The notes under the pieces were generated by a model. It saw nothing but the letters and a program-made list of their open reading frames with translations, ran no database searches and was not told where the DNA came from. 64,000 nucleotides of DNA from positions 248,001 through 312,000 of the forward strand of contig NZ_NPML01000013.1 in the NCBI RefSeq assembly GCF_002252565.1. The letters run 5' to 3'. Numbering within the stretch: the first letter of the stretch is position 1; each line of letters begins with the position of its first letter. Positions 39,278 through 57,797 of the stretch are shown here, piece by piece. This stretch comes from Petroclostridium xylanilyticum (GTDB taxonomy: Bacteria; Bacillota; Clostridia; SK-Y3). The translations under genes were made by a program, and so were the position numbers.

Positions 39278-39360
39278 GTTCACGGTTCACAGTTCACGGT
39301 TCACAGCAAAAGCTGTTAAATCGTTTACTGCTGTGAACTGAGAACTGTTAACTGTGAACT
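39278..39360. repeat. Heptamer tandem repeat, GTTCACR type, copy B
   Basis: Four plus-strand heptamers (GTTCACG, GTTCACA alternating) and, after a spacer nearly identical to that of the 1.5-kb copy, four of the opposite type (GTGAACT, GAGAACT, GTTAACT, GTGAACT). It fills the gap between the two flgK genes, inside the operon, and would be transcribed as a hairpin. Confidence 0.9.
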
Positions 39361-39441
39361 ATATAGCTGTTAATAATCTTATAATTTCTACCAAAGCATT
39401 TATCTGTCCAGCTCATAAGCTGCTTCCCTTAAATAATGATG

Positions 39442-45604: not shown

Positions 45605-45800
45605 TCCCGTTATAAGAAACTTATAAAAAGTTATAAATTTTATAGCTTTTATGTTCTTTTCCTTATTCCTAGAGTCCGCTTTCGGAATCCTACTTGCGTT
45701 TGGTATGACTCTCCAAAGGCTTAAATTCCGATGTAACGACACCGTACATACCAACATAATTCGTTAAGTGAATTATGCTGATTTTCCATATTTCATTAGA
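45605..45800 (-). ncRNA. Candidate omega RNA (right-end RNA) of TnpB
   Basis: TnpB nucleases use an RNA made from the 3' end of tnpB and the transposon right end as guide. This stretch covers the tnpB 3' end and 160 bases beyond it, is markedly more GC-rich than the gene and has paired segments (for example GAATCCT...AGGATTC-type pieces around 45680). The guide would be the first 15-20 bases past the element end, i.e. into recD2. No sequence test of the RNA was possible. Confidence 0.4.
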
Positions 45801-46987
45801 TTTATAGCTGCATTTATATCTCTGTCATGCATTATTCCACATTCAGGACACACCCATTTTCTTGTTGATAAAGACATCTTATCTAAAATATATCCACATT
45901 CACTACATGTCTTGCTTGATGGATAATACCTGTCTGCTACTATAAACCTAATATGATTCCATTTACATTTATATTCCATTATTCTACGAAACTCGCTAAA
46001 CATTTGTTCTTGTACGGATTTTGCTAATTTATGGTTTTTAACCATACCTTTAATATTTAAATTTTCCATACACACAAACTCTGGCTTGGCTTTCACCAGT
46101 TTAGCAGTTTCTTGATGTAAATAATTTGTACGAATGTCTTTTATTTTTTTATGGACTTTACGAATAAGGCACTCCAACTTAATAATGTTTTTAGTTTTCT
46201 TATAACGGTTTACACCTCCTTCTTTTTGTTTTTCATATTTTCTTGATAATTTACGTTGGAGTCTTTTTAATTTTTTATTTAATCTTCTTATTTCTTGACT
46301 CTTATTAATATTAGGTATTTTTCTACCATCATTAATTACTGCTAAATCTTTAACTCCTAAGTCAATGCCTATTCCATCTGAATACTTTTGGTTGTTGGTA
46401 GGTTTATAATCAATACTTACGGTTATAAACCAATTAAAACCATCAAATTTTATTCTTGGATTATAAAATTTTTCCGCTGTTTGTAATTCGATTCTATTTT
46501 CAGATAGTTTAATCCATCCTATCTTTTCAAGTTTTACTTTATCACCTTTAAATTTTAAATGTCCTAAATCTTCTCTGTGATAAAACCCTTGTTGTACATC
46601 TTTTTTGCTTTTAAATTTTGGATGTCCTTCTAAATCATAAACTGTCAATTGTCTACCTTGTCTTAATGCTTTTTTCTTAGTTTTTTCAGAATAATGTTTA
46701 TTTTCTATTCTGAAAAAGTTTTTATAAGCTATGCATAAATCCTTTATTGCTTGTTTTGGTATTTGTGCTGAAACTTCATTTAACCAATTATATTCAGGAT
46801 TTTTCTTTAGTTGTGTTAGTTCCTTTCTTAACTCTTCATCGTTTATAAACTTGCCACCGTTTTTAAAATTTTCTAATTGCTTAGATAAAGCCCAATTATA
46901 AGCCCATCGTGCTACATCTGCACATTTCTTTAATAAAGTCTTTTGTTTATTGTTAGGTAATAATTGTACTCTAATTGTCTTTATCAT
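45773..46987 (-). CDS. tnpB: RNA-guided endonuclease TnpB
   Basis: A 404-residue TnpB, the compact ancestor-type relative of Cas12. N-terminal helix-turn-helix region, then split RuvC with Asp209 in GIGIDLGVKDLAV, Glu308 in FVCMENLNIKGM and Asp390 in HDRDINAAINL, and a four-cysteine zinc finger (CSEC...CPEC, Cys361, 364, 380, 383). All catalytic residues are present and the frame is intact. TnpB cuts the empty donor or target site and keeps the transposon in the genome. It overlaps the 3' end of the broken tnpA. Confidence 0.93.
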   Translation of the reverse strand: MIKTIRVQLLPNNKQKTLLKKCADVARWAYNWALSKQLENFKNGGKFINDEELRKELTQLKKNPEYNWLNEVSAQIPKQAIKDLCIAYKNFFRIENKHYSEKTKKKALRQGRQLTVYDLEGHPKFKSKKDVQQGFYHREDLGHLKFKGDKVKLEKIGWIKLSENRIELQTAEKFYNPRIKFDGFNWFITVSIDYKPTNNQKYSDGIGIDLGVKDLAVINDGRKIPNINKSQEIRRLNKKLKRLQRKLSRKYEKQKEGGVNRYKKTKNIIKLECLIRKVHKKIKDIRTNYLHQETAKLVKAKPEFVCMENLNIKGMVKNHKLAKSVQEQMFSEFRRIMEYKCKWNHIRFIVADRYYPSSKTCSECGYILDKMSLSTRKWVCPECGIMHDRDINAAINLMKYGKSA

Positions 46988-47366
46988 CTTCGGTCAACTC
47001 CTCAATCATTTTACGTGCTTTGTTTGCTCTTTTACCTTGAAGTTTACAAGAAAATACAGTTATTATTTGCACTAAATCTTCAACAAGTTCTTGTTGTTCA
47101 GTTTTTTCTGTACTATCTATTACTTCAATTTCACATCCATACAGATTAGATATATATTCCACCAATTCAAAACCAAATCTTAACAATCTATCTTTTTTAA
47201 TATTTAATACTTGTTTTAATTGGTCATGCGAATAATATCTATATCCATTAGCACCTGTATGATGTGGAATAAGTAATCCTTTTTTGTCCCAGTTTCTTAA
47301 TGTTTGAGGAGTTTTTCCAACTAATTTAGAAAACTCATGTATAGTATAATACTTCACATTAACCAC
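46971..47366 (-). pseudogene. tnpA: IS607 TnpA serine recombinase lacking its catalytic core
   Basis: The 131-residue product keeps the MerR-like DNA-binding start (YYTIHEFSKLVGKTPQTLRNW) in parts, up to VLNIKK, and then jumps directly to DRLLRFGFELVEYI and the C-terminal QELVEDLVQIITVF. Full-length IS607 recombinases are about 200-215 residues; the missing 80 residues contain the YCRVSS catalytic serine. The deletion is in frame, so a protein may still be made that could bind the ends but not recombine them. Confidence 0.85.
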
Positions 47367-47523
47367 CTCTAATTGTATTAGACTATACTAAATTATAAAT
47401 GTCAACATTAATTTATGACTTTTTATAACTTTTTATTAACTGTTGTCAATCCCTATAAAACAGGCTTATTTGTTTTAAGTATACATCATTTGAAGGCTGG
47501 AGTGAAGGAGTTTTTATATAAAT

Positions 47524-47700
47524 ATGAAAATAGTGGGGAGTGAGGAGTAAAACCGAAACCACAAAAAAAGTCCGTTTTAGCAGGAAGAAGGGATGCGACT
47601 TGGGGACGGTTCGTCTGTCGAATGCGCTTTTCATGCGACTGAGGAACCGTCCCCATGTCGAAGCCCTGAGCAATCAAGCATATTTTCATCATTATTTGTG
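47524..47700. repeat. Composite dispersed repeat
   Basis: No gene lies in 47451-47712 apart from this element. It starts ATGAAAATAGT, continues with heptamers GGGGAGT and GAGGAGT, then the 32-bp module also found at 1645-1676 (47554-47585), then a REP-like inverted pair (GGGGACGGTTC at about 47602 facing GGAACCGTCCCC at 47643), and ends ATATTTTCATCATTATTTGTG. Both ends recur in the insertion at 56114-56218 within the PMT gene. Short ORFs here are accidental. Confidence 0.8.
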
Positions 47701-47712
47701 CCGTTTACTTTA

Positions 47713-48270: not shown

Positions 48271-49461
48271 TTAAAGGCTTGCTTCCTTCTTAAGTATTTC
48301 CGCCTTATCTGTTCTCTCCCATGGAAGATCTACGTCTGTTCTTCCGAAGTGTCCGTAAGCAGCGGTTTGTTTGTATATTGGTCTTCTCAGGTCAAGAGTC
48401 TTGATAATGCCGGCAGGTCTCAGGTCAAAATGCTTAACAATGAGCTCTTGGATCTTTTCTTCCGGAATCTTTGCAGTTCCGAAGGTTTCTACCAATACTG
48501 AAACAGGCTTTGCTACACCGATAGCATATGCAAGCTGTACTTCACATTTTCTTGCCAATCCGGCAGCTACAACGTTCTTTGCAACATATCTTGCAGCATA
48601 GGCAGCAGATCTGTCAACTTTTGTAGGATCTTTTCCTGAGAAAGCGCCGCCTCCGTGACGAGCATATCCACCATAAGTATCTACGATAATCTTTCTTCCT
48701 GTTAAGCCTGCATCTCCCTGTGGTCCTCCTACAACAAACCTTCCGGTTGGGTTGATAAAATATTTGGTCTGCGCATCCAATAACTCTGCAGGAACAGAAG
48801 GCTTAACTACATGCTCCATGATATCCTTTTCAATTGTATCATGATCCACTTCAGGACTGTGTTGGGTGGATACGACAATTGTATCTATTCTAACAGGTCT
48901 GTCATCTTCATATTCAACAGTTACCTGAGTCTTTCCATCCGGACGGAGATATTCAAGAGTACCATTCTTTCTTACTTCAGCCAGTTTTCTTGCCATTCTA
49001 TGTGCAAGTGCAATAGGCATAGGCATTAATTCAGGGGTTTCATCACAAGCGAAGCCAAACATCATTCCCTGATCTCCTGCACCTATCGCAGCTATCTCTT
49101 CTTCACTCATTTCACCTTTTTTAGCTTCCAACGCTCTATCAACCCCCATAGCAATGTCAGGGGATTGCTCGTCTATTGCAGTCAAAACAGCACACGTATC
49201 ACAGTCAAAGCCATATTTTGCTCTATCATAACCTATTCCACGAATTGTTTCTCTTACGATTTTGGGGATATCTACATAACAGCTGGTGGTAATTTCTCCT
49301 GCTACCAATACCAGCCCGGTAGTAACAGATGTTTCGCAGGCTACTCTTGCCATTGGGTCCTTTTCAAATATTGCGTCCAAAACAGCATCAGAAATTTGAT
49401 CGCAGATTTTATCTGGATGTCCCTCAGTAACAGATTCTGATGTAAATAACTTTCTCGACAT
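48271..49461 (-). CDS. metK: S-adenosylmethionine synthase
   Basis: MetK makes SAM from methionine and ATP. The 396-residue protein has [20 protein letters not shown] at the start, [16 protein letters not shown] (the GAGDQG loop) and [19 protein letters not shown] in the C-terminal domain, the P-loop-like methionine adenosyltransferase motif. Full length. AAAGGAGAG precedes the start. The upstream SAM-I riboswitch with terminator controls it by its own product. Confidence 0.97.
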
Positions 49462-49529: not shown

Positions 49530-49640
49530 CACTTTCTCCTCATCTCTCAGAACATTTATTCTGAAGGAATTGGCACCTTCGCTGACGCAGGTTGCCGGGT
49601 TTCACAGGGCCCTGTCCCTCCACCTCTCTTGATAAGGAAA
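49530..49640 (-). promoter_or_regulatory. SAM-I (S-box) riboswitch
   Basis: On the minus strand the S-box consensus is nearly complete: CTTATCAAGAGAGGTGGAGG, then GGGCCCTGTGAAACCCGGCA, AAGGTGCCAATTCC and the closing AGAGATGAG. P1 pairs CCTTATC with GATGAGG. SAM binding should stabilise the downstream terminator and switch metK off. Confidence 0.96.
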
Positions 49641-50248: not shown

Positions 50249-50317
50249 GTTCACAGTTCACGGTTCACGGTATTTTCTTGGCTAATTTCTGTGAACTGAG
50301 AACTGTGAACCGTGAAC
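50249..50317. repeat. Heptamer tandem repeat, GTTCACR type, copy C
   Basis: GTTCACA, GTTCACG, GTTCACG and, after a 21-nt spacer of different sequence from copies A and B, GTGAACT, GAGAACT, GTGAACC, GTGAAC. It lies in the gap between the exporter gene and phoU. Confidence 0.88.
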
Positions 50318-50438
50318 AAAATAACAATAATGTAACATACTTAGTGTTATTTATATATTAAACTGTGTAATGATTTCCGCCTATTTTCCCTCACTATTTT
50401 AATATATACGCAAATAAAAAGCAAATGTTTATTTAAAC

Positions 50439-55196: not shown

Positions 55197-57797
55197 CTAA
55201 TAGAATATCCAACTCGGCAGCCATCTCAAAAATCTTGTTACGTAGGCTTTGTCTACTACTGTACCCGATAGAACGGGATAGAACATGACAAACACACCAA
55301 GCACTACAGTCATGTATCCGTAAATTATATATCCATAATGGGGATACCTTTCTTTTATTCTCATAATTACATACGCTATACACAGAATAACAAAAGGCAC
55401 ACTGGCAAAAAAATGATACATAAATGTCAGCCTCGGCACCAGCACCCATGGTATGTATTGTGAAGCAAGCCCTACCAATACAATATACATACGGCTATCC
55501 CTATTTTTCATACTCATAACCGCTGCTGCAAATACTGCCGGAATACCTGTCCACCAAATTGCCGGATTTCCCATTGCCACAATACTGGACATCTTATCTG
55601 CGCCTAAATGTTCCTGCCCTCCATAATACCATACAGGCCTTATAATAAGCGGCCACTGCCACCATGGGGAAGAAAACGGATGGCTCGCCTTCAGCGTTTT
55701 ATGATAGTTATACATATGTATCTGGTAGGTTACTACATCCATAGGCCCGTGGCCTGGTCCCGGTACTATCATAAAGGGTATATAGGATAAAAAGTAAATG
55801 ATGAATGGTATCACGATAAAAAACAACATGCACCATAGTATAGTATTTCTACTATATGATGGAAATATTCTTACGACATATCTTAATCTTTCTACAGCCG
55901 GCTTGCCTGCTTTTACAGAAGCATCTCTCAAGCGTCGCTTTGCATAGCTGTATTCTTTATATCTTTTATATAGTGTTGTGAAAAATATGAGCGCCAACCC
56001 TACTCCCCCATAAAGACAAATCCATTTACTTGCTATCCCTAAACCAAAAGACAAGCCTGAAAGTCCCAAAGGAATTAAAGTCCTCCTGAATTCAATACTG
56101 TAAAAGTTCATATGAAAATAGTGAGGAGTAAATAGTGGGGAGTGGGGAGTAAAACCCGTGAAGCCGCTGCTCAAACTATTTTCATTATTATTTGTGATAT
56201 ATAGAAACAGTTCTTGGCAGTTCATATAATAATATCTGTACATAAAATAATACATTAATATAATAAAAAATACCCCGTATACATCTATAGTCGCAATTCT
56301 TGTCTGGGTAAAATGCATAAAATCAAAAGCCATTAAAAATGCTGCAAAAAAGGCATATTCAGTTTTATTAAAAAGTTCTTTTGCAAACACATACATCAGG
56401 GGAATCATCCCTATTCCGAATAAGGTACCGACAACCCTCCACCCCAAGGGGGTCATTCCAAACAAAGCGATGCCAATAGCAATAAAAATTTTACCAAGAG
56501 GTGGATGGGTTGATTCATAAGGTTCAATTTGATACAGATGCTCATAAGCTGTTCTCGCATGATATATCTCATCAAAATACATCCCGTTCATGAATGATGG
56601 TTCATATGTAACTGTATTCTGCTCATCAAATAGTTTTCCAGGATTCCCTGCAGTTGTCGGGTCTGTATCTGTTATTATAATAGACTTAACTTCTAAAGGC
56701 TTGCGGCTATTCTTTTCAAAAAAAACAAGCTCATTAAGCCTGGCCCCTGCTTCTGTAACTGTCAACTTTACATATCTTGCACGAAAGCTTTTCTTTAAAA
56801 TATTCCAAATATATATTTTTGAATCTTCATGATAGATATTCGTAATATTCTCCCATATTCGAGCATCTTCCGAAAAATCAACTTCATACTTTCCCTTTCC
56901 AATGCCTCCAAAATAGTAGACCCTTTCAATATTTTTTGTTTCTCCGAAATCAACATAAAAACTCTCTCCCATCCTGGCCGGCTTCCAAAAGGTTTGAGGA
57001 GCTCTAAAGGAACCCAGGTTATAAAATGCTATGACTGAATATATTAGAGTGAGAATTCCCAATAATAAAAAATCCTTTCTATTAAGTATCCCTCTTTGTT
57101 TTTCTCTCTTTTCTACAAAATTAGTATCCAAAATCAGGTACTTTCGTTTTATATAAATATCTAATCCTACTTTAGCCATGCAGGCCAAAAAAATTACATT
57201 CACCGCTGATATAAACATCAGTACACCATCAAACCGTGGAATCTGGTAAACCCCTTTTGCATTGCATAGCAGCACATAAGCTACATTTACAAAATGGGTA
57301 AAACTAAGTCCAGCTAGTAAGTATAAAATCCTCTTATCCCTTGTATATATATAGGTTATAACAGCAAGTACTACTGCAGGGAACAGATAGCGTTCGTGCA
57401 TCTTTGCTATTATGACAAATACAGCAGTAATAATAAACATACTTATAAAATAAAACCTGGATACATCTTCACTTTTGAAATAGATATATAAAGAAAAAGC
57501 AACGATTCCTACTATAAATATGTAGCCCCATATCTCATAGGAGAGAAACATCACTTTTGTAGAGCCGGACACCCAGTTTCCACCAAACAACGCAAATAAA
57601 TTAAACGCATTGACAGTAGCATAGGGATAGGATGCCTTAGATAATCCTACTGATGCTGCATGGTTTGCCCATGATTTAAATTTAAAACAGTAAATATCTG
57701 TAGGATGGCCTTGAATAACAGGTGCTATTAATAACCTCAGAAAAAATGCAGATAGAAGGATGTATACCAGTTTCCATTTATTCTTTATTATCTTCAT
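55197..57797 (-). CDS. PMT-type membrane mannosyltransferase with inserted repeat
   Basis: An 866-residue GT-C protein. The C-terminal half is a protein O-mannosyltransferase-like domain (DEIYHARTAYEHLYQIEPYE with the catalytic acidic residues, STHPPLGK, FGLGIASKWI). Residues 270-375 look like a discoidin/F5-8C-type beta domain (VYYFGGIGKGKYEVDF...ARYVKLTVTEAGARLNEL). The N-terminal GT-C module seems incomplete: HPTDIYCFKFKSWA is followed within 12 residues by SYPYATVNAFNLFALFGGNW, which in homologues comes a few hundred residues later. Residues 524-561 come from a 114-bp in-frame repeat insertion. Likely partner of the upstream lipid-sugar genes; activity may be altered. Confidence 0.85.
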   Translation of the reverse strand: MKIIKNKWKLVYILLSAFFLRLLIAPVIQGHPTDIYCFKFKSWANHAASVGLSKASYPYATVNAFNLFALFGGNWVSGSTKVMFLSYEIWGYIFIVGIVAFSLYIYFKSEDVSRFYFISMFIITAVFVIIAKMHERYLFPAVVLAVITYIYTRDKRILYLLAGLSFTHFVNVAYVLLCNAKGVYQIPRFDGVLMFISAVNVIFLACMAKVGLDIYIKRKYLILDTNFVEKREKQRGILNRKDFLLLGILTLIYSVIAFYNLGSFRAPQTFWKPARMGESFYVDFGETKNIERVYYFGGIGKGKYEVDFSEDARIWENITNIYHEDSKIYIWNILKKSFRARYVKLTVTEAGARLNELVFFEKNSRKPLEVKSIIITDTDPTTAGNPGKLFDEQNTVTYEPSFMNGMYFDEIYHARTAYEHLYQIEPYESTHPPLGKIFIAIGIALFGMTPLGWRVVGTLFGIGMIPLMYVFAKELFNKTEYAFFAAFLMAFDFMHFTQTRIATIDVYGVFFIILMYYFMYRYYYMNCQELFLYITNNNENSLSSGFTGFTPHSPLFTPHYFHMNFYSIEFRRTLIPLGLSGLSFGLGIASKWICLYGGVGLALIFFTTLYKRYKEYSYAKRRLRDASVKAGKPAVERLRYVVRIFPSYSRNTILWCMLFFIVIPFIIYFLSYIPFMIVPGPGHGPMDVVTYQIHMYNYHKTLKASHPFSSPWWQWPLIIRPVWYYGGQEHLGADKMSSIVAMGNPAIWWTGIPAVFAAAVMSMKNRDSRMYIVLVGLASQYIPWVLVPRLTFMYHFFASVPFVILCIAYVIMRIKERYPHYGYIIYGYMTVVLGVFVMFYPVLSGTVVDKAYVTRFLRWLPSWIFY
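56105..56227. repeat. In-frame dispersed repeat inserted in the PMT gene
   Basis: A 105-bp insert (56114-56218) flanked by the 9-bp direct repeat AGTTCATAT at 56105-56113 and 56219-56227. It begins ATGAAAATAGT, has heptamers GAGGAGT, AAATAGT, GGGGAGT, GGGGAGT and then ACTATTTTCATTATTATTTGTG, as in the composite repeat at 47524-47700. Total added length is 114 bases, a multiple of three, with no stop codon in the gene frame. Confidence 0.88.

Follow-up and report, generated by a model that had tools for sequence, protein, structure and literature searches.

Elements of the IS200/IS605 type carry hairpins near their ends, enter targets that resemble one of these ends and leave no target duplication. 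Small palindromic repeats standing in frame in protein genes have been described as Rickettsia palindromic elements (RPEs), and in-frame insertion was also reported for other MITEs (PMC10969869). GTAG and CGTC REPs have likewise been described (PMC3733652). QMITE2 of Coxiella is 150-190 bp long, occurs in about 50 copies, contains a REP and shows direct repeats of 7-11 nt (PMC5896051), and the pneumococcal BOX elements have modular ends and variable internal modules, one repeat being found inside another (PMC3049150). Proteins with in-frame repeats are already known, and the case presented below is on its own one more example. The repeat family to which it belongs is more interesting than the case itself.

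The stretch of DNA analysed here (64,000 nucleotides, referred to as the window) contains a gene for a protein O-mannosyltransferase (PMT) with a repeat inside it; the features are listed in Table 1. The two copies of AGTTCATAT, the 105-bp insert between them and the in-frame gain of 38 codons reported by the initial annotation are all present in the sequence, the insert and one AGTTCATAT copy making up 114 bp; the reading frame stays open for 500 codons on one side and 304 on the other. The Pfam matches to PMT and PMT_2 end at residues 525 and 523, and the insert starts at residue 526. PMT-like proteins were found in 28 genomes in a search of 60 relatives. The spacing from the conserved motif MYYFMYR to the conserved motif LSG is 67 residues in the window protein and 29 residues, which is 67 minus 38, in 21 of the 28 homologues, exactly the length left when the insert is taken out. 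In the other homologues the spacing was 28 (two proteins), 30, 25 and 21 (one each) or 40 (two), the last two being near-identical to each other and unrelated in sequence to the insert. Alignment of the homologues, a check that had been proposed at the outset, found the 38 residues missing from all 28. By the alignment and these lengths, the insertion is specific to the lineage of the window, with a net gain of exactly 114 bp. With the frame intact and the insert missing from every homologue, the claim that the repeat is tolerated inside a membrane protein is supported as well. Since solved PMT structures gave no sequence match, the insert site, which is probably a short loop between membrane segments, was placed by the alignment. 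The copy may have survived through a net gain that is a multiple of three, an open antisense frame and the short-loop site. The C22 copy of the repeat, which matches the insert over nearly its full length (81% over 112 bp), is by eye also stop-free when read in the PMT frame, and an open frame through this subfamily is therefore not exceptional. Hairpin 2 of the PMT copy has decayed. Judged from its sequence, the insert belongs to a genome-wide repeat family, of which it represents a decayed copy in antisense orientation.

Table 1. Features of the PMT insert and of the second family member, in window coordinates
Feature	Position	Strand	Basis
PMT gene, GT39-type protein O-mannosyltransferase, 866 aa, insert-bearing	55197..57797	(-)	ORF; Pfam PMT, PMT_2, PMT_4TMC
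Left AGTTCATAT, made up of target sequence and the left end TTARTAT of the family	56105..56113	(+)	Sequence, left-end alignment, end comparisons
105-bp insert between the AGTTCATAT copies; repeat on + strand, antisense to PMT	56114..56218	(+)	Sequence; C22 homology
Right AGTTCATAT, coincident with the family's own right end CAGTTARTAT	56219..56227	(+)	Sequence, right-end comparison
Stem 1 left arm ATGAAAATAG	56112..56121	(+)	Sequence, arm-pairing test
Heptamer cargo, AGTGAGG / AGTGGGG type	56122..56150	(+)	Sequence
Stem 1 right arm CTATTTTCAT, perfect complement of left arm	56176..56185	(+)	Sequence, arm-pairing test
Right-end module: TTTCATNATTATTTGTG, decayed hairpin 2, GGCAGTTCATAT	56177..56229	(+)	Covariance-model match, 36.6 bits
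Second family member, right-truncated (composite at 47524 of the initial annotation)	47522..47705	(+)	Sequence, pattern match
Nested GGGGACGGTTC...GAACCGTCCCC palindrome of the RAYT-flank kind, missing from the PMT insert	47589..47667	(+)	Inverted repeat I1; RAYT flanks

Copies of the family were collected from the genome of the window (the window genome) by sequence searches and from retrieved stretches, and amount to about 50-70 copies or pieces. The insert as query gave 50 BLAST matches in the genome, and patterns for the left and the right end gave 37 and 47 matches, against none for the reversed control of either. For the right end a covariance model (R1) was built from 25 training sequences with the PMT copy excluded; it found 54 right-end places at E<=1 and gave the right end in PMT a score of 36.6 bits (genome-wide E 0.0027). 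No Rfam match was found at the element. Read side by side, the copies share a frame of TTARTATGAAAATAGY, cargo, YTATTTTCATCATTATTTGTG, a hairpin such as GCCGGGTGCGCCCGGC and then GTGGCAGTTARTATGA; the cargo is variable and consists of heptamers (GTGGGGA/GTGGACA), other repeats and GGGGACGGTTC palindromes. The element consists of a left end TTARTATGAAA, a covarying stem 1 of ATGAAANNNN and NNNNTTTCAT around the cargo, a block NATTNTTTGTG, a second hairpin and a right end GTGGNNGTTARTATGA. The arms of stem 1 paired better within units than between them. In 18 units 164 pairs were counted where 151 were expected, and in the seven units that differ most from one another 62 where 53 were expected (p 0.0006); the test set was hand-made, with units of varied cargo from this and three other genomes and with arms picked by position. 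Across genomes stem 1 covaries (p<0.001; L111, two units of L168, and L170); in L111 it is ATGAAACGTA/TACGTTTCAT, and in most units ATGAAAATAG/CTATTTTCAT. The right-end alignment by itself gave pair counts only moderately above shuffles. L111 (1000-1550) also belongs, with L214 (410-450), to a subfamily with the left end ATGAAACGTAGTCTTGCCTGAAAC; with its cargo of about 430 bp, it may be the closest to a full-length parent element. GTGGGGA/GTGGACA heptamers were also seen on their own, with no hairpin frame around them, between genes in other genomes of the taxonomic family (G003: L123, L129, L132, L135; G004: L124, L130, L133), those of L123 apparently between ribosomal protein genes.

The PMT copy is the only clear case inside a long reading frame among 71 copies or pieces examined; a second candidate, L142, proved to be a chance match inside a gene. 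By crude ORF calls at 45 right ends, both neighbouring ORFs run along the element in 23 and both against it in eight; in PMT the repeat lies antisense. The dominant subfamily of the window genome carries GTGGCAG and lies mostly away from start codons. Two copies of this genome do sit at start codons, one at an rbgA-like gene and one at a radical-SAM-like gene beginning MKVLLTTLNAKYIHS, and these carry GTGGTGG and GTGGAGG, not GTGGCAG. A pair of loci considered as an orthologous insertion, L122 (G001:C76) and L141 (G000:C13), was set aside, being 100% identical over 1001 bp in genomes assigned to different genera, probably through a misassigned contig or a very recent transfer.

The initial annotation had described the composite at 47524 as sharing both ends and the heptamers with the insert. 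The left end, the heptamers and TATTTTCATNATTATTTGTG are indeed shared, but the composite ends after TTTGTGCCG and has no terminal GTGGCAGTTARTAT; it scored only 22 bits with the covariance model and, having another repeat nested inside it, cannot be taken as a simple relative. Several other features were observed in the window. An RAGATH-18 RNA (66 bits, 45659-45719, minus strand) lies beside an IS607-like TnpB gene (45773-46987), with a short MerR-like/serine-recombinase-like ORF nearby (46971-47366). A second repeat family, of GTTCACA/GTGAACT heptamers, is found at 1505-1583, 39285-39363 and 50249-50324, two of its copies being 96% identical over 79 bp. A SAM riboswitch (49537-49638, minus strand) lies upstream of an S-adenosylmethionine synthetase gene (48271-49461).

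The two AGTTCATAT copies, read in the initial annotation as a 9-bp duplication from a staggered cut, were compared with the ends of the family. Conservation of the left end starts sharply at -7 and is at background level beyond TTARTAT, and the right end carries CAGTTARTAT, that is, the same TTARTAT, so that most of the nine AGTTCATAT bases are element consensus. The 7-mers and 9-mers of the copy ends were read off by hand. For the 7-mers of 32 two-ended copies, left and right matched at 173 positions against 167 for shuffled ends (p=0.036), and this signal was gone without three copies, L001, L010 and L021 (p=0.59). In each of these three, left and right end agree in a non-consensus base (position 3, p=0.0001), as would be expected from a short duplication. 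At the first position the left and right ends differ in 16 of the 32 copies, and their A/G position is not correlated (p 0.24). For the 9-mers of 28 copies, a copy's own ends share 6.04 bases on average and ends of different copies 5.80; the left 9-mer of PMT matches eight unrelated right ends at eight of its nine positions. With TTARTAT in both family ends and hardly any excess of identity within copies, there is no support for a general duplication of 9 bp, and the other copies, at which such duplications were to be counted, largely lack them. A duplication of one to three bases is conceivable. The case is also a warning that direct repeats bordering a repeat may be something other than target duplications.

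Relatives of the element were found in a small number of other genomes. The family consensus matched six of 245 genomes of the class, model R1 matched eight of 291 genomes, and an exact scan of genome contigs for the right end gave matches in a Clostridiales MAG, Ruminiclostridium sufflavum and a Bacillota MAG. Genome G063 is most likely R. sufflavum, and the tentative Ruminiclostridium label used here for the other genomes of its genus (g31) follows from that. A second model, R2, found 48 places in G063, 22, 12 and 9 in three congeners and 0-2 in the remaining seven; it was trained on sequences ending in ATGA and so favours an ATG, not a gene behind it. The left ends in these genomes (TTAGCTTGAAAG) differ from those of the window genome, and the common descent of the two groups therefore rests on the right end and stem 1. 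Their right end is GTGGAGGTTANNATG in the Ruminiclostridium-type genomes, and its ATG (or TTG) is the start of a gene, such as those for superoxide dismutase, KhpA and a pyruvyl-transferase-like protein, among others named by eye from their first residues. In all 22 loci read in genus g31 outside G063, the right end stands between a Shine-Dalgarno sequence and a start codon, and that very ATG opens an ORF of 75 codons or more at each locus; the loci include two pairs of mutual orthologues. In G063, 16 of the 20 right ends outside array interiors are at the start of an ORF of 40 or more codons. The GGAGG of the Shine-Dalgarno sequence is supplied by the element itself. Before the start codon of a thpR-like gene, the sister genomes G291 and G296 have right ends that belong to different subfamilies (L311, L310). 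Head-to-tail arrays of the element were also seen (L258, at G063:C10:159211-159536; L228; L168), L258 having four right ends at 92-bp spacing and each unit a possible 31-residue peptide ending LCPNWAWRL. The idea that the element forms a mini-gene, a leader peptide running from a start on the left to a TGA overlapping the gene's ATG, was abandoned, as only about half of the copies allow it and this is partly expected by chance.

Insertion in the Ruminiclostridium-type relatives is proven by empty sites, and the mobility claimed for the repeat family is thereby borne out in related elements. In the genes compared, the sister genomes G291 and G296 show 94-99% identity. At a hydF-like gene, G291 has the empty site GGCTTAGGAGGTTAATATGAGTC and G296 the filled site GGAGGTTA-GCTTGAAAG...CATGGAGGTTA-ATATGAGTC. 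At L336/L341 the empty site TTGGGAGGTTAATATGAAA corresponds to GGGAGGTTA-GCTTGAAAG...CATGGAGGTTA-ATATGAAA, and at L337/L342 the empty site CAGGAGGAAGTTAATATG corresponds to CAGGAGGAAGTT-GCTTTGAAGG...GAATGATAGTT-AATATG. The hydF-like site and that at L336/L341 are already preceded by an older right end. The repeats at the junctions of the three pairs are 8, 8 and 4 bp long and coincide with the end of the element. In three further pairs both genomes were occupied or the flanks were too different to read.

These data bear on the reading of the initial annotation, that of a conventional MITE moved by a DDE transposase with target duplications of 8-9 bp. The exact 9-bp repeat at PMT, the 8-bp repeat of GGAGGTTA at two of the empty/filled pairs and the three copies with a matching non-consensus base speak for it, but the repeated bases equal the element's own ends, the third pair has only 4 bp (AGTT), and both the mismatched first position and the uncorrelated A/G position described above argue against it. 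No target-site duplication of constant length was found in the 32 copies, the 9-mer comparison or the three pairs. Nor are the terminal sequences mutual inverted repeats: the left end TTARTATGAAAATAG and the right end GTGGCAGTTARTATGA are direct, and the inverted arms are internal (stem 1). We consider a DDE-type MITE unlikely. Because of the folded ends, the end-like target, the lack of a constant duplication and the tandem units, a Y1 enzyme that transposes a single strand, or joining at G|TT in a cassette-like manner, fits better than a DDE transposase. In the cassette-like form, a unit TT...G would enter at G|TT by site-specific recombination, as attC cassettes do, and give rise to tandem arrays. 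A cut at G|TT is consistent with all three empty/filled pairs and the PMT site, and the arrays of G063 with their 92-bp spacing and the folded ends agree with it; in the window genome, however, a G precedes TT in only about a fifth of left flanks, which is near background, and this reading also seems improbable. A spread into PMT that needed no dedicated enzyme, through slippage of replication between repeats or recombination at short homologies, would suit the mosaic, nested cargo, the tandem copies and the junction microhomology of 4-9 bp, but is very unlikely given the precise ends at dozens of unrelated loci and the precise start-codon placement, which need a directed process.

The explanation we favour is that of a small non-autonomous mobile element which joins its ends at targets like its own right end, the PMT copy being a decayed off-site insertion; taken as a whole, we regard it as moderately probable, the enzyme step being inferred. 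The element is likely to be REP/MITE-like, and a Y1 transposase may have moved it in single-stranded form. It would join its ends at targets resembling GTTARTATG, without a target duplication of fixed length, its folded single strand being handled most likely by an IS200/IS605/RAYT-type transposase of the Y1 (HUH) class. The usual target in the Ruminiclostridium-type genomes would be the stretch from the Shine-Dalgarno sequence to the start codon, where the right end (GTGGAGGTTA) may restore the ribosome-binding site, so that insertions should be nearly harmless. One copy of the window genome would then have struck a site in PMT that looks like this target, AGTTCATATAA. Twelve matches to Y1_Tnp were found in the window genome, RAYT-like genes among them. 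None was found next to a family end in this genome, and no transposase-bearing copy was seen upstream of single right ends or inside elements; in the absence of a transposase gene between ends of this kind, the enzyme class named here is conjectural.

Among the systems described, the PMT copy resembles an RPE in being an in-frame repeat with an open frame that adds a few tens of residues. RPEs, however, occur in many genes with the frame kept, whereas of the roughly 70 copies or pieces seen here only one is a clear case. The short folded repeats in composite arrays, in a genome with RAYT-like genes, recall REP/BIME and RAYT systems, and the RAYT-flanking palindrome (GGGGACGGTTC) is nested inside many copies of the element, although not in the PMT insert. 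No unpaired GTAG was found at the palindrome end, the element consensus being CGTGGCAG or CGTGGAGG, and none of the RAYT-like genes of the window genome was found flanked by this element; they are flanked by GGGGACGG palindromes or others. By its description QMITE2 is similar in size, in copy number, in a nested REP-like palindrome and in direct repeats, but it belongs to an unrelated organism, and the direct repeats here are the element's own ends. The modular ends, the variable cargo and the nesting of repeats are like those described for BOX, for which the available part of the account gives no start-codon placement. Placement between a Shine-Dalgarno sequence and a start codon is likewise absent from the accessible portions of PMC10969869, PMC5896051, PMC3733652 and PMC3049150. 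A literature search for start-codon-targeting repeats and for the ATGA site of HEARO, mostly excluding subscription journals, gave nothing usable, which is weak evidence of novelty. In its hairpin ends and its lack of a fixed target duplication the element agrees with IS200/IS605, but no tnpA or tnpB was found between family ends. We see evenly balanced grounds for and against an undescribed class of clostridial element which brings its own Shine-Dalgarno sequence, inserts between Shine-Dalgarno and start codon and multiplies there with little damage, the PMT insertion having arisen off target in a subfamily no longer bound to such sites. If true, this would be a clear solution to the spread of a selfish repeat in a compact genome, and it predicts expression effects on dozens of genes. 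The unusual feature is a mobile hairpin family with relatives that select the starts of translation and replace the ribosome-binding site that they displace.
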